Below the pieces are notes generated by a model. That model did no database searches. It was given only the letters and a program-made list of their open reading frames with translations, and was not told the origin of the DNA. Shown here piece after piece: positions 3,713-14,712 of a stretch of 15,812 bases of DNA. The stretch lies in contig JAGAYQ010000342.1 in the NCBI GenBank assembly GCA_017940445.1, positions 1 to 15,812 of the forward strand, in the 5' to 3' direction. Position 1 is the first letter of the stretch; every line of letters begins with the position of its first letter. Source of the DNA: Pyramidobacter sp. (GTDB lineage: Bacteria; Synergistota; Synergistia; Synergistales; Dethiosulfovibrionaceae). The position numbers and the translations under genes were made by a program.

Positions 3713-4924
3713 GTGTCAAACGGATATTCTCACGAAAAACTCGCCGCCCGGGCGAAGGAGATCGAGCCGCAGATCATCGAGTGGCGGCATCAGATCCACC
3801 GCAACCCGGAGCTGGCTTTCCACGAAGTGGCCACGTCGGCGCTGATCGAGGAGCAGCTGAAGAAGTTCGGCCTCGACCAGGTGGAGCGCATCGGCTCGTC
3901 GAAGACGGGCGTGCTCGGCGTGCTCAAGGGCACCGGCACGGGCCCCGAGCTGTGCCTCGGCATCCGCGCCGACATCGACGCGCTGCCCATTCAGGAAGAG
4001 TCGGGCGTCGAGTTTGCCTCTCAAAATCCCGGCGTGTTCCACGGCTGCGGCCACGACACGCACGCCTCGTGCCTGCTGGGCACGGCCTGGCTGCTGAGCG
4101 AGTTCCGGCACTGCTTCGCCGGCACGGTCAAGTTCTTCTTCCAGCACGCCGAGGAAGTGCTCGGCGGCGGCGAGGAGTTCATGGCCGCCGGCGTGATGGA
4201 GAATCCTCACGTCGACGCGGTGCTGGCGCTGCACGCGCTGCCCGACATCGAGCTGGGCCAGATCGGCGTGCGCTACGACGCGATGACCGCCGCCGTCGAC
4301 GAGATCAAGATCACGATCGAGGGCAAACGCGCTCACGGCGCCTATCCGCACTTCGGCGTCGACACCATCCTCATCGCTTCGACCATCGTCACCCAGCTGA
4401 TGAGCCTGAGCTCGCGCGAGCTGTTCCCCACCGACTGCGCGCTCGTCACCTTCGGCAGCATCCACGGCGGCATCTCCAACTCCTACATCGGCGCGCCCGT
4501 CGTGCTCGAAGGCAGTCTGCGCTGCCTGCGCAACGACACGCACGATCATTTCGTCAAGCGCATCCGCGAGATCGTCGAGTCGGTCGCCACCGGGATGCGC
4601 GGCAAGGCCACCGTCGAGTTCCATCAGGAAAGCTGGCCCACCACCGTGGACCGCGACTGGGTGAACCGCGTGCGCCGCGCCTGTGACCAGGTGGAGGGCG
4701 CAAGCTCGGTCGACCTGCGTTCGCCGGCGATGGGCGGCGAAGACTTCGCCCTGTTTTTGCAGAAGGCGCCGGGCGTGCTCTTCCGCCTCGGCTGCCGCAC
4801 GCCGGGCGGCCCGCACTGCCCCACGCACTCCATCAACTTCTACGCCGACGACCGCAGCCTGCGCATCGGCTACGAAGTGATGACCACGACTGTTCTGAAC
4901 GCGCTCACGGGCGCGGAAGGATAA
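3713..4924 (+). CDS. M20D-family amidohydrolase (hippurate / N-acyl-amino-acid hydrolase-like)
   Basis: Cytosolic dinuclear-zinc amidohydrolase cleaving N-acyl amino acids or small peptides. Signatures in order: HRNPELAFHE (29-38), ADIDALPIQE (86-95), GCGHDTHAS (111-119; ligands C112, H114), catalytic E147-E148 in QHAEEVLGGG, H174 in ALHALPD, AHGAYPH (207-213) from the dimerisation domain, MGGEDFA (340-346) and the last ligand H372 in PTHS. The length of 403 aa is normal. The GTG at 3713 is preferred because AAGGAGG (3698-3704) is 8 nt upstream. An in-frame ATG at 3662 would add 17 residues but has no ribosome site. A structured repeat starts right after the stop codon, then comes the peptide-binding protein gene, probably in the same operon. 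The exact substrate is unknown. Confidence 0.9.
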   Translation: MSNGYSHEKLAARAKEIEPQIIEWRHQIHRNPELAFHEVATSALIEEQLKKFGLDQVERIGSSKTGVLGVLKGTGTGPELCLGIRADIDALPIQEESGVEFASQNPGVFHGCGHDTHASCLLGTAWLLSEFRHCFAGTVKFFFQHAEEVLGGGEEFMAAGVMENPHVDAVLALHALPDIELGQIGVRYDAMTAAVDEIKITIEGKRAHGAYPHFGVDTILIASTIVTQLMSLSSRELFPTDCALVTFGSIHGGISNSYIGAPVVLEGSLRCLRNDTHDHFVKRIREIVESVATGMRGKATVEFHQESWPTTVDRDWVNRVRRACDQVEGASSVDLRSPAMGGEDFALFLQKAPGVLFRLGCRTPGGPHCPTHSINFYADDRSLRIGYEVMTTTVLNALTGAEG

Positions 4925-5055
4925 GGAAACGCCGATAAAATACGCCATCTCCTGCGAAACGCTGCCCGAGGGGCTTCTCCAACGTACAGGGGTACGCCTC
5001 CGAAGCCCCTTCCGGACAGGTTTCTTCGGATCTGACGCATTTTCTCAGCGTTTCC
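4925..5055 (+). repeat. Structured 131-bp repeat, copy 1
   Basis: Starts at the base after the amidohydrolase stop codon and ends 50 bp before the binding-protein start. The whole unit is an imperfect inverted repeat with ends GGAAAC and GTTTCC. Its apical stem GTAC/GTAC (4984-4987, 4992-4995) closes an AGGG loop. GGGGCTTC (4970-4977) pairs with GAAGCCCC (5002-5009). It is about 85-90% identical to the copies at 6625 and 12656. There is no coding potential. It lacks the second 3' hairpin of the other two copies. Confidence 0.9.
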
Positions 5056-5105
5056 ATCACCCCCGGCAGTTGTCGCCGGACTATTTCGCAAGGAGGAATC
5101 GCTTT

Positions 5106-6623
5106 ATGAAACTTCGCAAATTCGCACTCGCTCTGGCTGCCCTGCTCGCGCTCGGCGCCGCCGCCTGCGCCGCTGATCTCGACACGCTCCGCGTCGGCAT
5201 GATCAACGACGCCAAGTCGCTCGACCCGCTCAAGGCCGTCGACACCATCTCGTTCGCCGTGCTCAAGCACATCAACGAGCCGCTCGTCACCGTCGACGGC
5301 AAGACGAAGCAGCTCGTCCCCGTGCTGGCCGAGAAGTGGGAGATCACCGATCCGCTCACCTACAAGTTCTACCTCAAAAAGGGCGTCAAGTTCCACAACG
5401 GCGAGGAGCTGACCGCCGACGACGTGGTGTACTCGTTCAAGCGCGCCATGTCGAAAGAGTCCGTCTACGCCAAGTCGAAGGCCAAGTACATCGACCCGAA
5501 CGGCTTTGAAGTGATCGACCGCTACACCGTCGTCGTCAAGACCACCACGCCCTTCGGCGGCTTCCTCGAGTCGATGAAGCACCCCTGGGCCAGCATCTTC
5601 AACAAGAAGGCCGTGGAGGACGCCGGCGACGATTACTTCCGCCGCCCCGTCGGCACGGGCCCCTACAAGTTCGACAAGTGGATCAAGGGCGAAAAGTGCG
5701 AGCTGTCCGCGTTCGACGGCTATCACGGCGAAAAGCCCCATGCGAAGAAGATCGTCTTCCTCGTCATGTCCGACGACAGCAGCCGCGTCATCGCGCTTGA
5801 GACCGGCAAGGCCGACATGATCTACTCCGTTCCTTCCAGCGACTTTGACCGCCTGGAGAGCGAAGGCCGCGTCAAGGCCGTCAAGGGCACGGGACACAAC
5901 ATCATCTACCTCGGCATGAACACGCAGAAGGGCGCGCTTGCCGATCCGCGCGTCAGACTGGCCATCGACTACGCCATCGACAAGGACGCCTACACTCACG
6001 TCGTCTATCAGGACAAGGCCGCCGTGCTCGACGGGCCGCTGCCCTTCTCCAGCAGCTTCACGCCCGAAGGCAGCAAGCGCCTGCCCTGCGATCCCGACAA
6101 GGCCCGCGCCCTGCTCAAGGAAGCCGGCTATGAGAAGGGCCTCACCCTCAACCTGTGGATCGAGAGCAACCAGAACTACATCAACGGCGCCACGGTACTC
6201 CAGTCGATGCTCGGCAACGTCGGCATCAACGTCAAGATCATCACGCTCGAATCCGGCGTCTTCGACGACCGCGTCACCACCGGCGAGCAGGACATGATCA
6301 TCAGCACCTGGGGCATGCAGACCAACCGCGACGCCGGCCAGTTCTGGCTGTCGCTGTTCCACTCGCACAGCATCGGCTCCACCAACTGGTCGCTGACCAA
6401 GGACGAGACGATCGACAAGAACATCGAGCTGGGCAACGCCAGCGTCGATCCTGAGACCCGCCGTCAGGCCTTCCAGGCCGTGTGGGACCGCCTCGGCGAG
6501 CTGCGCCCCTTCGTCTCGCTGGCCGTGCCCAACGAGCTGTACGCCGGCCGCAAGGACCTGAAGGGCATGGAAGACTTCTGCGACGGACGCCTCAACTATC
6601 TCGGCAATCTCACCATCGAATAA
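5106..6623 (+). CDS. ABC transporter substrate-binding protein, family 5 (DppA/OppA-like)
   Basis: Exported solute-binding protein for peptides or related solutes (505 aa, typical length). A signal peptide covers residues 1-22 (KLRK, hydrophobic run, then AAACAA). The Cys at 21 lacks a good lipobox because position -3 is Ala, so lipoprotein status is uncertain. The mature part starts with TLRVGMINDAKSLDPL, then NEPLVTVDG and the family motif YKFYLKKGVKFHNGEELTAD (residues about 84-103). Later LADPRVRLAIDYAIDK and the CDPDKARALLKEAGY segment are classic SBP_bac_5 features. AAGGAGG (5090-5096) sets the start; an in-frame ATG 36 nt earlier lacks such a site. No permease or ATPase gene is present in the window, so it is an orphan binding protein or works with a remote transporter. 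Its link to the upstream amidohydrolase suggests uptake of acylated amino acids or peptides. Confidence 0.9.
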   Translation: MKLRKFALALAALLALGAAACAADLDTLRVGMINDAKSLDPLKAVDTISFAVLKHINEPLVTVDGKTKQLVPVLAEKWEITDPLTYKFYLKKGVKFHNGEELTADDVVYSFKRAMSKESVYAKSKAKYIDPNGFEVIDRYTVVVKTTTPFGGFLESMKHPWASIFNKKAVEDAGDDYFRRPVGTGPYKFDKWIKGEKCELSAFDGYHGEKPHAKKIVFLVMSDDSSRVIALETGKADMIYSVPSSDFDRLESEGRVKAVKGTGHNIIYLGMNTQKGALADPRVRLAIDYAIDKDAYTHVVYQDKAAVLDGPLPFSSSFTPEGSKRLPCDPDKARALLKEAGYEKGLTLNLWIESNQNYINGATVLQSMLGNVGINVKIITLESGVFDDRVTTGEQDMIISTWGMQTNRDAGQFWLSLFHSHSIGSTNWSLTKDETIDKNIELGNASVDPETRRQAFQAVWDRLGELRPFVSLAVPNELYAGRKDLKGMEDFCDGRLNYLGNLTIE

Positions 6624-6624
6624 A

Positions 6625-6806
6625 GAAAACGCTGATAAAATACGTCATCTCCTGCGAAACGCTGTCCGAGGGGCTCCTCCAACGTACGTGAGTACGCCTT
6701 CGGAGCCCCTTACGGACAGGTTTCTTCGGATCTGACGCATTTTCTCAGGTTTTCCATGCGCTGCGTGAAATGCAGCATCATGAGATTTCATCATCGCTTC
6801 TTATTA
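6625..6806 (+). repeat. Structured repeat, copy 2 with 3' hairpin extension
   Basis: The 131-bp core (6625-6755) begins one base after the binding-protein stop codon. The apical stem GTAC/GTAC (6684-6687, 6692-6695) closes a GTGA loop of the GNRA type. GGGGCTCC (6670-6677) pairs with GGAGCCCC (6702-6709). The extension (6756-6806) contains TGAAAT (6766-6771) paired with ATTTCA (6785-6790) and is shared with copy 3 only. Confidence 0.9.
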
Positions 6807-6817
6807 GAAGCACGCAC

Positions 6818-6854
6818 AAAAAACGCCTTCGGCCGCAAACCGGAGGCGTTTTTT
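6818..6854 (+). terminator. Intrinsic terminator after the binding-protein gene
   Basis: A 15-bp stem (6818-6832 with 6840-6854, one G-T pair) has the loop CCGCAAA. Its base is A6/T6, so the 3' arm ends in TTTTTT. It ends the amidohydrolase/binding-protein unit downstream of repeat copy 2. Confidence 0.88.
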
Positions 6855-6875
6855 GCGCGCGCAGCAATTTTTTTC

Positions 6876-6904
6876 GTGACGAAGCGCGAATTTTAGGGTA
6901 ATAT
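6876..6904 (+). promoter_or_regulatory. Promoter of the membrane J-domain gene
   Basis: GTGACG (6876-6881) and TAATAT (6899-6904) are separated by 17 bp. The start codon is 54 bp downstream. Confidence 0.55.
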
Positions 6905-6958
6905 GCGGGCGTATTGTTGTTCACGATCCCGTTCGCGTTTCGCGGAGGTGTTTTTTTC

Positions 6959-7528
6959 ATGATGCATCTTGGACTGATCGGCGCCGTCGTCGGCGCGCTG
7001 TTTCTCATCTGGCTCATCCCCACGCTCATCGGCGGCCTGTTTTCCGGCGTGTGGTGGCTGATCAAGCTGCCCTTCCGCCTGCTCTGGCTGATCGTCGCCG
7101 ACGGCATCGGCGGCCTGCTGGCGCTGCTGTGGCGGCTTTTTTCCGGCTTTTTCGGCCTCTTCGGCTGGCTGGGGACGATCGTCATGTGGCTGGTCATCAT
7201 CGCCGCTGTCATCTTCGGCGGCATGACGGTTGTGTCATTTTTCTCAGGTGCAAAAAAGCAGTCTGCCTCCTCGTCCGGAAAGCAGCGCGCCGAAGAAGAA
7301 CAGCCCGGCTCGTCCGCGCCGCCCCGCTTCGCCCAGCGCGCCTGGGCCCTGAACGAACTGGGGCTTCCCGCCAGCGCCAGCGCTTCCGACATCAAGAGCC
7401 GCTATCACGAGCTGGTCAAGCGCGACCATCCCGACCGCCTCGGCCCCAATGCGGCCGCCCGCGAACGCGAGCAGGCCCAGAAGCGCATGGAGCGCCTCAA
7501 TCAGGCCTATGAGATCCTCTCGCACTGA
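6959..7528 (+). CDS. Membrane-anchored J-domain (DnaJ-like) protein
   Basis: A 189-aa protein with a hydrophobic N-terminal half and a cytosolic J-domain at the C-terminus. Likely membrane segments are about residues 4-29, 31-65 (Trp/Leu/Phe-rich, perhaps one or two helices) and 68-95. A polar linker with Ser/Gln/Glu (97-125) follows. The J-domain spans about 128-189: helix I RAWALNELGL, helix II IKSRYHELVKRD, the diagnostic HPD tripeptide (157-159), and helix III ending NQAYEILSH. The layout recalls DjlA/TIM14-type proteins that recruit DnaK (Hsp70) to a membrane. GGAGGTG (6944-6950) sits 8 nt before the first of two adjacent ATGs; an upstream in-frame TTG (6914) lacks such a site. The gene is monocistronic and converges on the superoxide reductase gene. 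The partner process is unknown. Confidence 0.85.
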   Translation: MMHLGLIGAVVGALFLIWLIPTLIGGLFSGVWWLIKLPFRLLWLIVADGIGGLLALLWRLFSGFFGLFGWLGTIVMWLVIIAAVIFGGMTVVSFFSGAKKQSASSSGKQRAEEEQPGSSAPPRFAQRAWALNELGLPASASASDIKSRYHELVKRDHPDRLGPNAAAREREQAQKRMERLNQAYEILSH

Positions 7529-7530
7529 TA

Positions 7531-7582
7531 AAAATCGCGGCGGACGGCCGGGAACGCTCTCCCGGCTGTCCGCCGCATTTTT
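7531..7582. terminator. Bidirectional terminator between J-domain and superoxide reductase genes
   Basis: A 17-bp GC-rich stem (7537-7553 with 7560-7576; one G-T pair) has the loop ACGCTC. It is followed by ATTTTT on the plus strand and preceded by AAAAAT on the plus strand, giving a U-tract on the minus strand as well. Confidence 0.9.
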
Positions 7583-7600
7583 GTGCAGTTTTAGTAATAC

Positions 7601-7966
7601 TTATTCGACAGAAATCTCCGCGCTCGACTCCCAGAGGCCGTGCAGGTTGCAGTAGCTCACGGCGATCAGCGTGCCGCTTTCCTTCAGTTTAACGCTCAGG
7701 CAGCCCTTGGGCTCCACGGCCAGTTCGCCGTGCACGTTGAAGTCCAGCTCGCCCAGTTCGACGGCAAATTTGCCGCCCGCGGGCTTGAAGTACAGCTTGA
7801 TCCACGCGATAAAATGCTCGGGCGTGTTGGGATGCGCGATCTCCGCGCCCACGCACAGCTTGACGCAGACGGCCTCGCCCGCCTTGACCGACGCAGGCGC
7901 GTCGATGACAGGAACGTGCTTCTCGCCCTTCCAGTCGCCGCTTTGGATCAGTTCGCCAATTTTCAT
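7601..7966 (-). CDS. Superoxide reductase (neelaredoxin / class II SOR, desulfoferrodoxin family)
   Basis: Reduces superoxide to hydrogen peroxide without making oxygen, a typical anaerobe defence in the cytosol. The 121-aa length matches one-iron neelaredoxins; there is no N-terminal desulforedoxin Cys4 domain. The Fe(His4Cys) site is complete: H17 in GEKHVPV (with the catalytic-loop pair E15-K16), H45 and H51 in HPNTPEHF, C106 and H109 in CNLHG. Electrons normally come from rubredoxin; no rubredoxin gene is seen here. The flavodoxin 4 kb away is not an established donor. GGGGGGT lies 7 nt before the ATG. The gene diverges from the second M20 gene and ends in a shared terminator. Confidence 0.95.
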   Translation of the reverse strand: MKIGELIQSGDWKGEKHVPVIDAPASVKAGEAVCVKLCVGAEIAHPNTPEHFIAWIKLYFKPAGGKFAVELGELDFNVHGELAVEPKGCLSVKLKESGTLIAVSYCNLHGLWESSAEISVE

Positions 7967-8007
7967 AATGATTACCCCCCGTTCTTGGAATGGTACTGCA
8001 TAAGCAA

Positions 8008-8035
8008 ATTATATCATGCGCGGGCGTTTCCACAA
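8008..8035 (-). promoter_or_regulatory. Promoter of the superoxide reductase gene
   Basis: On the minus strand the -10 is a consensus TATAAT (8008-8013). The -35 candidate TTGTGG (8030-8035) is 16 bp away. Confidence 0.6.
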
Positions 8036-8063
8036 AATGCCCCTCGACGGCCCGGGCATTTTT
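8034..8063. other. Hairpin with A/T flanks inside the divergent promoter region
   Basis: AAAATGCCC (8034-8042) is complementary to GGGCATTTT (8054-8062), with an 11-nt loop. It looks like a bidirectional terminator, but it overlaps the -35 of the minus-strand promoter and holds the -35 of the plus-strand promoter in its loop. An operator or an insulator are both possible. Confidence 0.45.
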
Positions 8064-8072
8064 CCTTACAAT
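8044..8072 (+). promoter_or_regulatory. Promoter of the second M20 peptidase gene
   Basis: TCGACG (8044-8049) and TACAAT (8067-8072) are 17 bp apart; the start codon is 40 bp downstream. Confidence 0.5.
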
Positions 8073-8112
8073 AAGACCGTCGCTTAACTTTTTCGGAAAG
8101 AAGGTTTCTTTT

Positions 8113-9306
8113 ATGGAACGTGAAAAGCTGTACGCTGCCGTCAAAGCCTCCGTCGAGTCGCGCCGCGCCGGGCTGTGCGCGATGGCCGATCAGATCTTCG
8201 GCTGGGCCGAGCTGGGACTGAAAGAATTCAAGTCGAGCGCTCTGCTCGAAGACTGCCTGGAGCGCGAGGGCTTCGCCGTCGAGCGCGGCGTCGGCGGCCT
8301 GGAGACAGCCTTCCGCGCCGTCTGGAGCAAAGGCCAGGGCGGACCGTCGTTCGGCCTGCTGTGCGAGTACGATGCTCTCGAGCGCCTCGGACACGCCTGC
8401 GGCCATCACATGCAGGGACCGTCGATCATCGGCGCAGCCCTCGCCATCCGCGATCTGGCCGAGAGCGCCGCGCCGGGAGCGCCTTTTAAGATCGTCGTCT
8501 ACGGCACGCCCGCTGAGGAAACGCTCGGCGGCAAGACGCCGATGATGGAAAACGGCTGCTTCGGCGACATCGACGTGGCGCTGATGATGCACGGCGCGCC
8601 CAACACCTGCGTCGACGTCAAGTCGATGGCCTCGCGCGAGTTCAAGATCCGCTTCAGGGGCAAGAACGCCCACGCCGCCCTCGCGCCCGATCAGGGACGC
8701 AGCGCCTTCGACGCCGCCCTGCTGTCGTTCAGCGCCCTCGAGTTTCTGCGCGAGCACGTGCGCGAAGACACCCGCATCCACTACACCGTCGTCGACGCCG
8801 GCGGCCCGGCCAACGTCGTGCCCGACCACGCCACGGCACAGTACATGATCCGCTCCTACGACACGGACTATCTGGAAACGCTCATGCCCCGCGTGGAAGA
8901 CATCTGGAAGGGCGCCTGCCTGATGACGGGCACTTCCTACGAGATCGAGAGCCAGAGCCGCTTCTGGGGCAAGATCCCGGCGCTCGCGCTCAACGACCTG
9001 ATCATGGAGCAGGCCCGCGCCTTCGACGCGCCGCAGCTGGCCGCCCCGCGCGAAAAGACCGGCTCCACCGACTTCGGCATCGTCATGTACAAAGTGCCCG
9101 GCTGCTGCATCCGCTGCGCCTTCGTGCCCGAGGGCACCTCGTCCCACTCCAAGGGCTTCCTCGACGCCGGCCTGACGGAGACCGCCCACAACGCCGTCGT
9201 CTTCGGCGAGGAGATCCTCGCCGCCGCCTGCCTGCGCATCCTCGAAGAGCCCGCGCTGCTGGAAAAGATCAAGGCCGATTTCACCGCGCGCAAGGAAGGG
9301 CGCTAG
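8113..9306 (+). CDS. M20-family metallopeptidase/amidohydrolase (AbgB/PM20D2-like)
   Basis: A second cytosolic zinc amidohydrolase (397 aa), clearly distinct from the one at 3713. Features: CEYDALERLGHACGHH (84-99) with the metal motif GHACGHH, PAEETLGGK (133-141) with catalytic E135-E136, H160 in MMHGAP, and NAHAALAPDQGRSA (185-198) of the dimerisation lid. The EYDAL...GHACGH pattern is that of the AbgB / PM20D2 group (p-aminobenzoyl-glutamate hydrolases and beta-alanyl or Xaa-basic dipeptidases) rather than classical HipO. A C-terminal GTSSHSKGF (341-349) probably gives the last histidine ligand. AAGAAGG lies about 9 nt before the ATG at 8113; upstream in-frame codons lack such a site. The gene stands alone, diverging from superoxide reductase and converging on glyA. 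Substrate specificity is open. Confidence 0.88.
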   Translation: MEREKLYAAVKASVESRRAGLCAMADQIFGWAELGLKEFKSSALLEDCLEREGFAVERGVGGLETAFRAVWSKGQGGPSFGLLCEYDALERLGHACGHHMQGPSIIGAALAIRDLAESAAPGAPFKIVVYGTPAEETLGGKTPMMENGCFGDIDVALMMHGAPNTCVDVKSMASREFKIRFRGKNAHAALAPDQGRSAFDAALLSFSALEFLREHVREDTRIHYTVVDAGGPANVVPDHATAQYMIRSYDTDYLETLMPRVEDIWKGACLMTGTSYEIESQSRFWGKIPALALNDLIMEQARAFDAPQLAAPREKTGSTDFGIVMYKVPGCCIRCAFVPEGTSSHSKGFLDAGLTETAHNAVVFGEEILAAACLRILEEPALLEKIKADFTARKEGR

Positions 9307-9334
9307 ATTCAAAAGCCCGACACGAAGACACAAA
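9307..9334 (+). repeat. Inverted repeat, left arm (ATTCAAA...GACACGAAGACACAAAG)
   Basis: Starts right after the M20 stop codon. It matches the reverse complement of 9493-9520 in nearly all positions with a few gaps. The arms enclose a 214-bp segment carrying two terminators. Confidence 0.65.
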
Positions 9335-9371
9335 GGGCCTAAAGACACGAAGTTTTTTACGATTTGCGCTG

Positions 9372-9403
9372 CGCGCCGGAGGATAATTTCTCCGGCGCGT
9401 TTT
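9372..9403 (+). terminator. Terminator of the second M20 gene
   Basis: CGCGCCGGAG (9372-9381) pairs perfectly with CTCCGGCGCG (9390-9399) across an 8-nt AT-rich loop and is followed by TTTT. Confidence 0.82.
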
Positions 9404-9435
9404 CTGTTCTCCGTGGAACAAAAAGACGCTGCCTC

Positions 9436-9470
9436 AAAAAAATAGCCTCCCGGGAAAAATTCCGAGAGGC
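9436..9470 (-). terminator. Terminator of glyA
   Basis: On the minus strand GCCTCTCGGAA (9460-9470) pairs with the arm at 9445-9456, with one bulge, and is followed by a T7 tract (A7 at 9436-9442 on the plus strand). Confidence 0.8.
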
Positions 9471-9492
9471 GATTTCTGTTTATTTCTTTGTG

Positions 9493-9520
9493 TCTTCGTG
9501 TCTTTGTGTCAGCTTTGAAT
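9493..9520 (-). repeat. Inverted repeat, right arm
   Basis: Reverse complement of the arm at 9307-9334. Its own plus-strand text has the alternating CTTTGTGTCTTCGTGTC pattern. It lies 18 bp from the end of glyA. Confidence 0.65.
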
Positions 9521-9538
9521 GAAAACGTTCCCCCGCCC

Positions 9539-10798
<1,260 letters not shown>

Positions 10799-10866
10799 AG
10801 TTCAGTCTCCCCTTCTTTTTAAATTTAAAACTGCAAAAGATACAGCGCCTGTCTCTTTATAGAATC

Positions 10867-10895
10867 AGAGTACCGTATTTTTCCCGCCGTGTCAA
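10867..10895 (-). promoter_or_regulatory. Promoter of glyA
   Basis: A perfect -35 TTGACA (10890-10895) lies 17 bp from TACTCT (10867-10872) on the minus strand. A TATAAA nearby (10858-10863) is an alternative -10 without a good -35. Confidence 0.6.
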
Positions 10896-11285
10896 AAGAA
10901 TATACCGACGCTTTCTAAAAATATATCGCGCAAAGACCGGACTTGTTTTTGCAAGTTTCGCATATTCTGCCGCCCTGATCGACGTAATACAGTATACTTG
11001 ATATAAATCAACCATGAACGGAGACATCTCTCAGCGATTTTTACATTAATATTTAGATTTATATATCGATACGGCATTCAATAATATTTTTCATCTGTAT
11101 TATGTAATGCCCGCTGCGCCGTTTTTTTGCGCCGGCGTTCTGGAAATCGTGCGCGTTTTTCTGCTCTGCTGATATGCAGCGCTTTTGGGCAGGATGTTCC
11201 TCATGCTCATCATGCAGACGCGTTATTGCCTCTTCGCAGGACAGCCGCGAGCGTTCTGCATAGAACAGCTCATTCGCGCACCGCG
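10896..11285. other. Gene-poor, partly AT-rich intergenic stretch
   Basis: I see no convincing gene here. Bases 10896-11110 are markedly AT-rich compared with the flanking genes and include the FNR-type palindrome at 10998-11011. Bases 11110-11285 return to higher GC. Short open frames exist on both strands, but none has a ribosome site or a recognisable product. Confidence 0.6.
10998..11011. promoter_or_regulatory. FNR/CRP-type palindrome TTGATATAAATCAA
   Basis: A perfect match to the FNR consensus TTGAT-N4-ATCAA, directly after a TATACT that could serve as a -10 (10993-10998). No recognisable gene follows at a suitable distance on either strand. glyA starts about 200 bp away on the minus strand. 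Confidence 0.45.
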
Positions 11286-11328
11286 AAAAAATTCGGACCG
11301 TCCTGCGAGGGCGGTCCGAATCATTTTT
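11286..11328. terminator. Terminator of the DUF2023 gene (bidirectional shape)
   Basis: ATTCGGACCG (11291-11300) pairs perfectly with CGGTCCGAAT (11312-11321). On the minus strand the stem runs directly into T6 (A6 at 11286-11291), so it ends the DUF2023 transcript. On the plus strand CATTTTT follows. Confidence 0.85.
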
Positions 11329-11353
11329 GGGGCTCAAAAATAGTTGTTCACGG

Positions 11354-11701
11354 CTAATCAGCCGCGCATTCCATCCGCGAGCGCTCTTTTTCGCTCAGGG
11401 TGATGTAGCGGCGGCACTCTTCGAGGCGGCCGTAGCCGAGCATGATGCCGAGGATGAAGTCCTCTTCCTTGGAGTAGTCGCTGAGGCTTTTGCTGCCGAA
11501 GATCTCGAGCACGGCGATGCAGTCGGGATGTCCGAAGAACACGTTGACGTGCCCGTTGCTCAGATACGACAGCTTGTAGGCGATACCATGGGCTTCCAGC
11601 GTGCGGACGATCTCCGGCACGTCCGAAGCCGGCGCGGTGTGAAGGATGAGGCTGCGCAAGCCCTTCTGAAACTCGTAGATATGATGGCGAAAAACTTCCA
11701 T
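11354..11701 (-). CDS. DUF2023 family protein
   Basis: A 115-aa protein that I recognise as DUF2023 from its opening MEVFRHHIYEFQKGLRSLILHT and from NVFFGHPDCIAVLEIF (residues 53-68), SLSDYSKEEDFILGIMLGYGRLEEC (72-96). No signal peptide or membrane segment is present. The family has no proven function. From memory, members often sit beside flavodoxin genes, and here the gene is divergent from a flavodoxin. GGGAGG (11711-11716) lies 9 nt before the ATG. The promoter carries a palindrome (11739-11754) that matches one at the flavodoxin promoter, so the two genes are probably co-regulated. It may assist or modulate the flavodoxin (inference). Confidence 0.85.
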   Translation of the reverse strand: MEVFRHHIYEFQKGLRSLILHTAPASDVPEIVRTLEAHGIAYKLSYLSNGHVNVFFGHPDCIAVLEIFGSKSLSDYSKEEDFILGIMLGYGRLEECRRYITLSEKERSRMECAAD

Positions 11702-11738
11702 GGCGGCGTTCCTCCCGTTAAATTAGATTGATATGAGA

Positions 11739-11754
11739 ATTAGTGCACGCTAAT
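11739..11754. promoter_or_regulatory. Operator candidate ATTAGTGCACGCTAAT (DUF2023 side)
   Basis: An interrupted palindrome ATTAG-N6-CTAAT lying 13 bp beyond the -10 of the DUF2023 promoter. Its reverse complement ATTAGCGTGCACTAAT matches the flavodoxin-side site ATTAGCGTCAACTAAC at 13 of 16 positions. The TTAG...CTAA half-sites resemble DtxR/IdeR-type boxes. Confidence 0.6.
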
Positions 11755-11767
11755 AATAACCAAAAAG

Positions 11768-11796
11768 AGGATACCCTTCGGTGCGATTTTTGTCAA
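11768..11796 (-). promoter_or_regulatory. Promoter of the DUF2023 gene
   Basis: TTGACA (11791-11796) and TATCCT (11768-11773) on the minus strand, with a 17-bp spacer. Confidence 0.65.
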
Positions 11797-11907
11797 GCCA
11801 TCAAAGCACAAGGTGTTTCTAAACACTCAAAATCGCCTATCGATGCCGTATACATGCCGCTTTAGGTGAGCTGAAAAAATTCCTCGAAAAATTTTTCATT
11901 TGCCCCC

Positions 11908-11935
11908 TTGACGCCAGAAAAATTTCAGATACAAT
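11908..11935 (+). promoter_or_regulatory. Promoter of the flavodoxin gene
   Basis: TTGACG (11908-11913) and TACAAT (11930-11935) with a 16-bp spacer. An A/T-rich inverted repeat (about 11873-11899) lies just upstream and could act as an UP element. Confidence 0.65.
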
Positions 11936-11936
11936 A

Positions 11937-11952
11937 ATTAGCGTCAACTAAC
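11937..11952. promoter_or_regulatory. Operator candidate ATTAGCGTCAACTAAC (flavodoxin side)
   Basis: TTAG-N6-CTAA begins 2 bp after the -10 box and would cover the transcription start, the position of a repressor site. A further CTAAC follows at 11952-11956. It matches the DUF2023-side palindrome. Confidence 0.6.
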
Positions 11953-11988
11953 TAACGGAGCAAAAAAACTCCACAGGAGGTTTTACAC

Positions 11989-12483
11989 ATGTCAATCGCA
12001 GTCATTTACGGAAGCACCACGGGCAGCACGGCCGAGATCGCGGCCAGCATCGCTTCGGCGCTTGGCGCCGACTGCCTGAACGTGGCCGAAGTGTCGGCCG
12101 ACAAGCTGGCCGGCTACGACGCCCTGGTCCTCGGCTCTTCGACGTGGGGCGCCGGCGACCTTCAGGACGACTGGGAGGCCAATATCGGCGCGCTTGAATG
12201 CGCGAACCTGGCCGGCAAGAAGGCCGCCGTGTTCGGCACGGGCGACTCGCTCGGCTTTGCCGACACGTTCTGCGACGCTCTGGCACGCCTGCGCGACGCG
12301 GCTGTCGCCGCCGGCGCGACAATGGTCGGCGCGGGCGCTGTCGAAGGCTATGACGGCGTGGCTTCCCGCGTGTTCGAGAACGGCCAGTTCATCGGCCTTC
12401 CTCTTGATGTGAGCAATCAGCCTGAGCTGACCGACGCCCGCGTCGCCGCCTGGGTCGAAAAGCTCAAGGGCGAACTCGCGTAA
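11989..12483 (+). CDS. fldA: Long-chain flavodoxin
   Basis: FMN-binding low-potential electron carrier of the cytosol that can replace ferredoxin under iron limitation (164 aa). The phosphate loop is STTGST (9-14). W53 in SSTWGAGDLQDDWE is the usual inner stacking tryptophan. The 90s loop GTGDSLGFADTFCDAL (83-98) carries F90 where most flavodoxins have the outer stacking tyrosine. The insertion region VEGYDGVASRVFENGQFIG (118-136), followed by LPLDVSNQPELTDARVAAWV, marks the long-chain class. A strong AGGAGG ribosome site lies 9 nt before the ATG. The gene diverges from DUF2023, and the two promoters carry matching operators. A DtxR-like regulator gene lies 455 bp downstream. The identity is firm; iron regulation is inferred. 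Confidence 0.95.
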   Translation: MSIAVIYGSTTGSTAEIAASIASALGADCLNVAEVSADKLAGYDALVLGSSTWGAGDLQDDWEANIGALECANLAGKKAAVFGTGDSLGFADTFCDALARLRDAAVAAGATMVGAGAVEGYDGVASRVFENGQFIGLPLDVSNQPELTDARVAAWVEKLKGELA

Positions 12484-12567
12484 TTTTTTCCATCTGCCTG
12501 CCGAACCGGATCATCTCCACAAGGCAGACGCCGCATCCGCGGCTCCCATCGACAGCGGCTCCCCTTC

Positions 12568-12640
12568 GGCCCTTTCGCCTCCCCCCCGGCGTGAAGGCCG
12601 TGCCGGCCCTTCGTTTCCCCCCCTTTTTCGAGGGGCCGGC
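12568..12640 (+). other. Two adjacent GC-rich hairpins with C-tracts after the flavodoxin gene
   Basis: GGCCCTTTCGCC (12568-12579) pairs imperfectly with GGCGTGAAGGCC (12588-12599). Then GCCGGCCCT (12602-12610) pairs with AGGGGCCGGC (12631-12640). The loops hold runs of seven C and five T. There is no adjacent U-tract, so this is not a standard intrinsic terminator. It may protect the 3' end of the flavodoxin mRNA. Confidence 0.45.
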
Positions 12641-12655
12641 AACTCCGCTGTTTAT

Positions 12656-12834
12656 GGAAACGCTGATAAAATACGTCATCTCCTGCGAAACGCTGTCCGA
12701 GGGGCTCCTCCAACGTACGGAAGTACGCCTCCGGAGCCTCTTGCGGACAGGTTTCTTCGGATCTGACGCATTTTCTCAGGTTTCCTGTGCGCTCGTTAAA
12801 TTCTGCATAATGGGATTTAATCAGCGATTCCTTA
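12656..12834 (+). repeat. Structured repeat, copy 3 with 3' hairpin extension
   Basis: The core (12656-12785) has the apical stem GTAC/GTAC closing a GGAA loop (12719-12722) of the GNRA type. GGGGCTCC (12701-12708) pairs with GGAGCCTC (12733-12740), keeping a G-U pair. The extension (12786-12834) has TTAAAT (12796-12801) paired with ATTTAA (12815-12820), where copy 2 has TGAAAT and ATTTCA. Confidence 0.9.
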
Positions 12835-12869
12835 GGAAACGCCGCTCGCGGTTTTGTTCATTTTGAGTC

Positions 12870-12898
12870 TTGCAAATTGCCCCTTTTTCTGGCATTAT
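12870..12898 (+). promoter_or_regulatory. Promoter of the DtxR-family regulator gene
   Basis: TTGCAA (12870-12875) and CATTAT (12893-12898), with a 17-bp spacer. A palindrome TTGTTAAACAA (12898-12908) overlaps the -10 end and the likely start site and could be an autoregulatory operator. Confidence 0.5.
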
Positions 12899-12937
12899 TG
12901 TTAAACAAACCACTGTTGCGAGAGCGAGGGGCAAAAA

Positions 12938-13306
12938 GTGCAAATTCATCAGTCTGCTGAAGATTATCTGGAAAAAATACTGATGCTCAACGAGCGGCTC
13001 GGATATGCCCGCTCCGTTGACATCGCCAATGAGCTGAAAGTGACCAAGCCCAGCGTCAGCGTCGCGATGAAGCGGCTGCGCGAGAACAATTACATCGAGA
13101 TGGACCGCGACGGTCACATCACGCTGCTGCCCGCGGGCAGAGCGATCGCCGAACGGATCTACGACCGTCACAAAGTGCTCTCCGCGTTTCTGCGCGAGCT
13201 CGGCGTCAGTGACGAGACCGCAGCGGAAGACGCCTGCAAGGTCGAGCATGTCCTCTCGGAAGAAAGCTTCAGCGCGGTGTGCCGCTTCGTGCACAAATCG
13301 CTGTAG
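12938..13306 (+). CDS. DtxR/MntR-family metal-dependent transcriptional regulator
   Basis: A 122-aa metalloregulator with a winged helix-turn-helix (about residues 8-65, recognition helix KPSVSVAMKRLREN) and the DtxR dimerisation/metal domain (66-122); the C-terminal SH3-like domain of DtxR/IdeR is absent, as in MntR. Aligning by eye with B. subtilis MntR gives ligands D9, E12, H78, E103 and H104. The MntR E99 position is C100, in an ACKVEHVLS motif that matches the ACRWEHVMS of iron-sensing DtxR. The binding site is therefore mixed and the metal is uncertain. The start is a GTG with GAGGGG 6 nt upstream. The gene is monocistronic between repeat copy 3 and a terminator. TTAG-N6-CTAA sites at the flavodoxin/DUF2023 promoters are plausible targets. 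Confidence 0.9.
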   Translation: MQIHQSAEDYLEKILMLNERLGYARSVDIANELKVTKPSVSVAMKRLRENNYIEMDRDGHITLLPAGRAIAERIYDRHKVLSAFLRELGVSDETAAEDACKVEHVLSEESFSAVCRFVHKSL

Positions 13307-13455: not shown

Positions 13456-13491
13456 AGGCTCATAAATTTATTGAAAGAAAGGAAGATCATC

Positions 13492-14712
13492 ATGAAAAAG
13501 CTGTTTTCTGCGCTGCTCGTGCCGCTGCTGCTCGCATCCGGCGCGGCCGCGGTCGTGCCCGAAGTGCCGCTGGTGCTGCTGACCGGCAAGGATAACACGG
13601 AATACACGCTGAACGAGTATCACCTCAACGAGACGACAGGCCGCATCACCGTCGTGATCGCCGGCAACTATCCGCCGGGAGGCGCGAAGCAGAAGGCGAT
13701 CGCCATGCTCTCGTCGAAGCACCGCGTGCCGATGGCCCGCGCCCGCAAAGTCGACGCCAACCTGTTCTGCTTCCGCTTCAGCGCTGACGGCGCCAAATTC
13801 CAGCGCGTCTTCGACCGCTATGTCGACGCCGACGGCGAGGTGATCGCCGATCTGCCCGTCAACACGAAAAAATGGGAAACAGCCAAGCCGCAGCTGACTT
13901 CCGGCAAAGCCTACCGCATGGCGGTCGAACAGCTCTCACAGCTTGACAGCGACGGACCGACGCCGCCTCCGCCTCCTGCCGTGCAGAAAAAGCAGAACGC
14001 GCCCGAACCTCCCGCCGCGCTGAAAAAGCAGGATGTCCCCGAGCCGCGCTCCAATCAGAAGCAGCCCCCGGCGAAAAAGGACGCTCCGCGCGCCGCAGGC
14101 CCCGGACGCGCCGTGACGGCCGACGAATGGCAGAAGCTGTCGTATGCGCAGCTGAGCAGTGCCGTCGGCACGAACACCGACGTGAACGAGTTCATCGCCT
14201 ACACCGCCCCTGACGGCGCCGAAGCCGAAGGCTACGTGCTCGCTGCCGTGGCCGCGCGCAGGGACGCCGACGCCGGCAGGATCCTGAACCTGCTGCTCGA
14301 CCGCGGCGCCGATCCCGCCAACGATCCCAGCGTGCTCGCCAACTACATCCTCACGCACGGCAAAAACGCCGACATGTCCCTCGTCGACCGGCTGGCGGCC
14401 AACAAAGAACAGATCGATCCCGCCTTCCTCGCCTGCTGCACGGCAGGCGCGACGAAAGCCGCCGAAAAGCTGCTCGACGCCGGCGCGAGCGTGAATGACG
14501 CGGAATACAATCCCGATGCTTCGGTCCTGCTCGAAGCGCTGAACGTGAAGGCCGCTCCCCAGATCATCACGATGCTCGTCGAGCGCGGCGCCGACACGAA
14601 GCGCGAGGGCGAAGTGTACGACGCCAAAAGCGGCGAGTCGTTCCGCGGCACGCCCGCCGAGCTGGCACAGGCCCGCGGCTACGGCGAAAACGTGATCGGC
14701 CTGCTGCGCTGA
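13492..14712 (+). CDS. Exported protein: new-looking N-terminal domain, Pro-rich linker, ankyrin-like repeats
   Basis: A 406-aa exported protein. The signal peptide is residues 1-20 (MKK, hydrophobic run, SGAAA cleavage). Residues about 26-150 form a domain shared with the next gene: LNEYHLNETTGRITVV (40-55), FRFSADGAKFQRVFDRY (94-110) and DADGEVI (112-118). A low-complexity linker (156-200) has five consecutive prolines and a duplicated KKQ-(N/D)-(A/V)-PEP unit. Residues about 240-406 look like degenerate ankyrin repeats: LLDRGADP (268-275), LLDAGASVN (327-335), MLVERGADT (361-369) and GTPAELAQARGY (386-397). I know no function for the N-terminal domain. A periplasmic or surface protein-binding role is inference. 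GGAAG sits 7 nt before the ATG; an in-frame TTG 21 nt earlier has no ribosome site. The next gene starts 42 bp after the stop codon, probably in the same operon. Confidence 0.8.
   Translation: MKKLFSALLVPLLLASGAAAVVPEVPLVLLTGKDNTEYTLNEYHLNETTGRITVVIAGNYPPGGAKQKAIAMLSSKHRVPMARARKVDANLFCFRFSADGAKFQRVFDRYVDADGEVIADLPVNTKKWETAKPQLTSGKAYRMAVEQLSQLDSDGPTPPPPPAVQKKQNAPEPPAALKKQDVPEPRSNQKQPPAKKDAPRAAGPGRAVTADEWQKLSYAQLSSAVGTNTDVNEFIAYTAPDGAEAEGYVLAAVAARRDADAGRILNLLLDRGADPANDPSVLANYILTHGKNADMSLVDRLAANKEQIDPAFLACCTAGATKAAEKLLDAGASVNDAEYNPDASVLLEALNVKAAPQIITMLVERGADTKREGEVYDAKSGESFRGTPAELAQARGYGENVIGLLR

Follow-up and report, generated by a model that had tools for sequence, protein, structure and literature searches.

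The 15,812-nt contig JAGAYQ010000342.1 of Pyramidobacter sp. (assembly GCA_017940445.1), referred to over its full length as the window, carries three copies of a 131-bp repeat that folds into a long hairpin. The question raised by this locus is whether the repeat is an RNA structure kept by selection, as the initial annotation had preferred, or a mobile element. We conclude with high confidence that the repeats are copies of a non-autonomous transposon of the IS5 family, i.e. a miniature inverted-repeat transposable element (MITE). The evidence combines terminal inverted repeats and a 4-bp duplication of the target with dispersal over at least 40 places in the genome, absence from relatives and from the three equivalent sites of a congener, and the presence in the same genome of an IS5 element whose ends are similar. 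What suggested a conserved RNA fold is thereby settled as a transposon, and the case illustrates that a palindromic make-up can mimic RNA covariation.

The three copies, at 4925-5055, 6625-6755 and 12656-12785, are indeed repeats of one another, copies 1 and 3 being 88% and 94% identical to copy 2. The 131-bp unit is nevertheless incomplete and covers the left three quarters of an element of 176 bp: the conserved sequence extends about 45 bp further to the right, up to an inverse copy of the left end, the right end ...GATTAAATCAGCGTTTCC being the inverse of GGAAACGCTGATAAAAT. Among 34 scorable elements, the length ranges from 165 to 188 bp and is mostly 176 bp. Immediately outside both ends, a direct 4-bp target duplication is exact in 12 of 35 copies, compared with a mean of 2.7 in shuffled data, and none of 5000 shuffles reached the observed number; duplications of 2, 3, 5 or 6 bp gave no clear excess in the same 35 copies. 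This test covered 35 of 38 elements (L001, L013 and L039 were left out) and includes L040, whose right end is spurious. The commonest target words are TTAA, CTAA, ATAA, TTAG and TTTA, and the target motif described for IS5 is YTAR (PMC10359306). The MITE half of the initial guess, which had combined it with a palindromic repeat family, was thus right as regards terminal inverted repeats, target-site duplication and dispersed copies.

Sequence searches located the element at no fewer than 40 distinct places in its own genome, as multiple, short, dispersed copies devoid of a transposase gene. Forty of 50 first-look candidates were scored, and the 66 matches correspond to the 40 places plus 26 opposite-strand matches of the same palindromes; one further fragment lies on contig C240. 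The 40 places represent 38 elements, L025 and L034 being second assembled versions of the L020 and L014 loci. In both pairs the same insertion site was assembled twice with internal differences (loop GGAA or TGAA; an A-C mismatch against A-T; three arm bases missing), which probably reflects a mixture of strains in this assembly of 472 contigs and 84% completeness. The copies differ from one another by 1-18%, with a mean core identity of 92.4% over 561 pairs, and therefore do not stem from one recent burst. The element was found in none of the 40 relatives searched, five of them congeners. An exact search for a 26-base core returned no match in genome and viral contig collections, although near records may be missing from such a search. 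In the congener that is nearest by these matches (G002; 79-91% DNA identity), the element is absent at all three window sites compared, within syntenic surroundings. At the sites of copies 1 and 2, G002 has the same stop codon, followed within a few dozen bases by a ribosome-binding region or a terminator, the terminator after the stop codon at the copy 2 site being similar to that of the window.

A candidate partner resides in the same genome, in which three matches to DDE_Tnp_1 were detected. The strongest (contig C171, locus L094) is a transposase of the IS5 family, with 302.7 bits to NF033581 against a cut-off of 140 and further matches to PF01609 and PF05598. The insertion sequence (IS) that encodes it (G000:C171) begins with GGAACCGCTGATTAAT... 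and ends with ...GGGATTTAATCAGTGGCTCC, flanked by TTAG and TTAA; with the same words outside, its flanking ends are also given as GGAACCGCTGATTAAT and GGAGCCACTGATTAAATCCC. The right end of MITE copy L036 (GGGATTTAATCAGCGTTTCC) is the same as that of this IS at 17 of 20 positions. A fragment of the IS lies on C404, and congeners carry IS5 copies with the same kind of ends (L098, L100 and L111), L098 having TTAA on both sides. These ends are shared by a second MITE family of 155 bp, hereafter family B, for which a search of 21 genomes gave 11 full-length matches within the own genome plus one in G002, and by a third element, about 210 bp long. It would be usual for a single kind of transposase to serve several MITE families in this way, and the IS5 transposase is the likely partner within a search directed at DDE_Tnp_1 only. 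In a genome from another family of the same order (G033), several ends of this type (GGAACCGCTGATTA, GAAAACGCTGATTA) lie close together at two loci (L092, L093), which suggests tiny MITEs of the same group.

We propose that the C171 transposase, or a close relative, would bind the shared ends and move the MITE in trans into YTAR-like targets, IS5 being the most likely means of its mobilisation. Several observations weigh against the IS5 MITE interpretation. The ends of the IS and of the MITE differ at some positions (GGAACC versus GGAAAC), and the exact parent IS may be missing from the incomplete assembly. Of the 35 target words on each side, no more than 14 on the left and 16 on the right fit YTAR exactly. 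At copies 1 and 3, moreover, the bases immediately around the empty place are not the same in G002 and in the window's genome, so that these are not base-exact empty sites.

The hairpin itself is real. On the + strand, copies 1, 2 and 3 fold with z-scores of -5.3, -9.2 and -8.3 relative to 200 dinucleotide shuffles each, forming the full-length imperfect hairpins initially described, and on the - strand they are more stable still (-11.1, -11.8 and -9.9). The replacement of T4976-A5003 in copy 1 by C6676-G6703 in copy 2 (hairpin pair 52-79), the G12702-T12739 wobble pair in copy 3 (pair 47-84) and the apical loops AGGG, GTGA and GGAA are all present as described. The statement that the repeat has no coding capacity was too loose, since a 91-codon open frame (12591-12866) crosses copy 3, although no sign was seen that this frame is a gene. 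A small-RNA family was rejected: five weak Rfam matches at E-values up to 5 were obtained, none overlapping a copy and none reaching the gathering score, the best being 6C (35.3 of 47 bits) at 12566-12645, outside the copies. A promoter within copy 3 was likewise rejected, as a consensus scan of 12480-12990 gave a single promoter-like match at 12963-12990, outside the copy.

Two processes could account for the paired changes in the stem, and they were weighed on 34 of the 38 elements, L035, L038, L039 and L040 being left out as truncated or carrying large indels; in the tree-based substitution counts, block changes were masked in four rows. Under selection on the transcript, the fold would be kept as an mRNA 3' or intercistronic element, acting for instance on mRNA stability or processing. 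The fold is stable far beyond shuffles in the three window copies, and in 31 of 35 copies that could be scored the + strand has the sense of the left gene's transcript. Four two-sided changes from one Watson-Crick pair to another occurred within one branch (pairs 2-130, 6-126, 47-84 and 52-79), compared with a permutation mean of 0.64, and a fraction of 0.0025 of 2000 permutations reached this number. Cells with both sides changed amounted to 25 against 10.7 in shuffled data and the covariation score to 0.046 against 0.029, neither being reached in 500 shuffles, although related sequences can exceed such shuffles without structure, and the six outer pairs were left out of the scoring owing to 3' misalignment; 22 of the 25 cells fall in pairs 52-79, 53-78 and 41-92. 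Some of the compensatory change in the stem is genuine, but it does not single out RNA selection, since template switching between the hairpin arms could give the same two-sided pattern. In such quasipalindrome correction at the DNA level, arms can be created and mended in one step (PMC8794818). We regard it as a serious candidate, with a probability slightly below even, for the origin of the two-sided changes. Each of the four lies on a single tree tip, the apical loop, with 6.5 changes per site, is hypervariable, and in L029 and L030 GCCT is followed at once by its own reverse complement, AGGC, a block change that resembles a template switch. Variability like that of apical-loop positions is also seen at one internal-bulge position, column 88 of the 131-bp hairpin (L019:1588), with 12 changes on the tree.

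Strand symmetry bears on both processes. Changes that create G-U pairs in the stem number 12 on the + strand and 17 on the - strand (p = 0.46), which agrees with template switching and counts against selection on the transcript. The + strand is moreover the weaker folder, with a mean of -64.8 against -79.5 kcal/mol, the - strand being more stable in 33 of 34 copies. Selection for GNRA tetraloops was rejected, such loops being found in 19 of 34 copies when shuffling of loop letters by column gives 19.9. Paired sites underwent 0.66 changes per site and other unpaired sites 1.29 (p = 0.06), a value that falls to 0.83 once the hypervariable column 88 is removed, so that stems are not clearly slower. 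Restorations of broken pairs (12, against 13.3 permuted) and further pair types, no more frequent than in shuffled data (470 of 500), show no excess, and the 40 relatives contain no copy. The change pattern is thus strand-symmetric, as expected for DNA palindromes, and the evidence for RNA selection is mixed and mostly negative; the preference of the initial annotation for RNA-fold selection over a transposon is unsupported, and we consider a fold kept by selection on the transcript improbable. Template switching has its own difficulties: one-sided mismatches persist, such as C-A at pair 41-92 in 10 of 34 copies, and the lack of excess restorations is at odds with a process that should raise them. 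Within the IS5 MITE interpretation, the long hairpin would come from the palindromic make-up of the element, and its arms may stay complementary mainly by copying from parents, with occasional correction by template switching.

The placement of the copies is the least ordinary aspect of the family. The initial annotation had taken target-site duplications and random placement as the marks of a plain MITE; the duplications are present, but placement is not random, the copies being strongly co-oriented with the gene on their left. Genes were called from codon usage, and an absent right end was set 45 nt beyond the hairpin. Between tandem genes, 23 copies have the same direction as the genes and three the opposite one (p = 9e-5), the rest of the 38 lying in convergent (4) or divergent (1) contexts or having one side unknown (7). 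Of 35 copies, 31 have a left neighbour directed towards the element. In 19 copies the left end is no more than 10 nt from a stop codon, against five in the mirror image (p = 0.007). Called gene starts within 100 nt are found at the left, hairpin end in no copy and at the right, tail end in 14 (p = 1.2e-4). When the downstream start is closer than 100 nt, 13 copies are in the same and none in the opposite direction; when it is further away, the numbers are 10 and 3 (p = 0.09). As a check on the gene calls, 30 of 69 neighbour rows were compared with Pfam in three sets of ten, of which 9, 7 and 9 contained a domain (25 in all); no domain was found in the 80-codon neighbour of L006, a reversed copy, or in either neighbour of L032. 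In family B, no orientation bias was detected among 13 own-genome copies, two of which have one side unknown, with two and three copies in the two tandem directions; the two families differ by Fisher tests in tandem contexts (p = 0.038), strand of the left gene (p = 0.006) and side of the gene start (p = 0.002).

Such co-orientation with the preceding gene is unusual among elements of this kind. The stop codons TAA and TAG match a YTAR-like target and are preserved by the duplication, which would account for the many copies that start immediately behind a stop codon; the target preference explains stop codons as targets, but not for the direction of insertion. The insertion step could itself set the direction, through an asymmetric target or coupling to the replication strand. 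A T-rich stretch of 14 nt, as after a terminator, precedes four copies on the left, its mirror image on the right being found in none, and pneumococcal repeats lie on the leading strand in 61-63% of cases (PMC3049150). The co-oriented fraction here, 23 of 26, exceeds that figure, and family B, with the same kind of ends, is unbiased, albeit in small numbers (p = 0.038 for tandem contexts). Target-site asymmetry was rejected as a cause, since the 18 copies away from stop codons have near-symmetric words (among 36 words, NTAA 9, TTAN 6, TTAA 4 and other 17). We regard a bias arising at insertion as less likely than not. The most likely explanation, weakly held, is selection after insertion against copies that would place the large hairpin beside the start of the downstream gene, the 45-nt tail perhaps serving as a spacer in the tolerated orientation. 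Family B weakens the spacer idea: its hairpin extends to both ends, but in 5 of 13 own-genome copies a called gene start is found less than 100 nt from the left end. Because the copies are so strongly oriented with the gene to their left, a role as a 3' element stays under consideration. In its furthest form, a lineage-specific MITE would have been put to use simultaneously at dozens of gene ends as an intercistronic or 3' element, the hairpin abutting the stop and the tail facing the next gene, tuning the upstream mRNA or shielding the downstream start; we consider this improbable. The orientation rule can be set against a sister family that shares this type of end and serves as an internal control; it offers a testable case for deciding whether small mobile elements in operons owe their direction to insertion or to selection.

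The enterobacterial ERIC element probably differs in sequence from the one described here. Both are small repeats with a long stem inside operons, and the orientation of ERIC is called crucial for its effect on mRNA (PMC2229807, PMC3049150); the present element is set apart by its 4-bp TTAA-like duplication. Correia/NEMIS elements of Neisseria likewise have a long stem in transcripts, terminal repeats and a target duplication, and their transcripts are proposed substrates of RNase III (PMC2229807). Repetitive extragenic palindromes (REPs) are also repeated palindromes, but measure 20-40 bp and mostly carry a tag at one end (PMC3733652); membership in REP/RAYT was rejected on size and the one-end tag, the present element being mostly 176 bp, with terminal GGAAAC repeats and a target duplication. 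The closest likeness is to bacterial MITEs derived from insertion sequences, which are short, non-coding and mostly intergenic, with terminal repeats, target duplication, stem-loop transcripts and a related IS in the genome (PMC10969869); strong co-orientation with the left gene and the stop codon as a frequent target set the present element apart. No account of MITEs in Synergistetes or of MITE orientation bias in bacteria was found in the literature searched, which excluded subscription papers and IS databases, and the accessible literature on transposable elements of Pyramidobacter, again outside subscription papers, yielded nothing related. As far as sequence and literature searches reach, the family is new, although ordinary in kind, most likely an IS5-mobilised MITE.

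Table 1. Coordinates of the element copies, their parts and related elements (window positions unless a locus is named).
Feature	Position	Strand	Remarks
Copy 1	4925..5055	+	131-bp hairpin part, right tail missing; directly follows a gene that ends at 4924 with a TAA stop (4922-4924)
Copy 2	6625..6801	+	full element, right end degenerate; preceded by the stop codon of a gene that ends at 6623 and followed by a terminator-like hairpin
Copy 3	12656..12831	+	full 176-bp element
Copy 3, left target-site copy	12652..12655	+	TTAT
Copy 3, left terminal inverted repeat	12656..12671	+	GGAAACGCTGATAAAA
Copy 3, tail	12786..12831	+	about 45 nt outside the 131-bp unit; short imperfect palindrome ending in the right terminal repeat
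Copy 3, right terminal inverted repeat	12815..12831	-	GGAATCGCTGATTAAAT, read on the - strand
Copy 3, right target-site copy	12832..12835	+	TTAG; 3 of 4 letters match the left TTAT
Family B, example	L066:1501-1655		
Third element	L067:1461-1670		about 210 bp; same kind of ends, GGGAAACGCTGATCGAATT ... AAATCAGCGTTTTCC

Directly after the right target copy of copy 3, the word GGAAACGC occupies 12835-12842, its G common to both, and is perhaps a relic of another end. Elsewhere in the window, two 37-nt imperfect palindromes of the ATTTTAGAT...ATCTAAAA type, 81% alike, lie at 51-87 and 1375-1411 and flank the open reading frame (ORF) 105-1364, possibly as the ends of a small mobile unit. A 30-bp inverted repeat with a 6-nt gap (7524-7589), lying where two convergent genes meet, resembles a bidirectional terminator, and ORF 13471-14712 contains two tandem 36-nt units, 78% alike, at 13972-14043.

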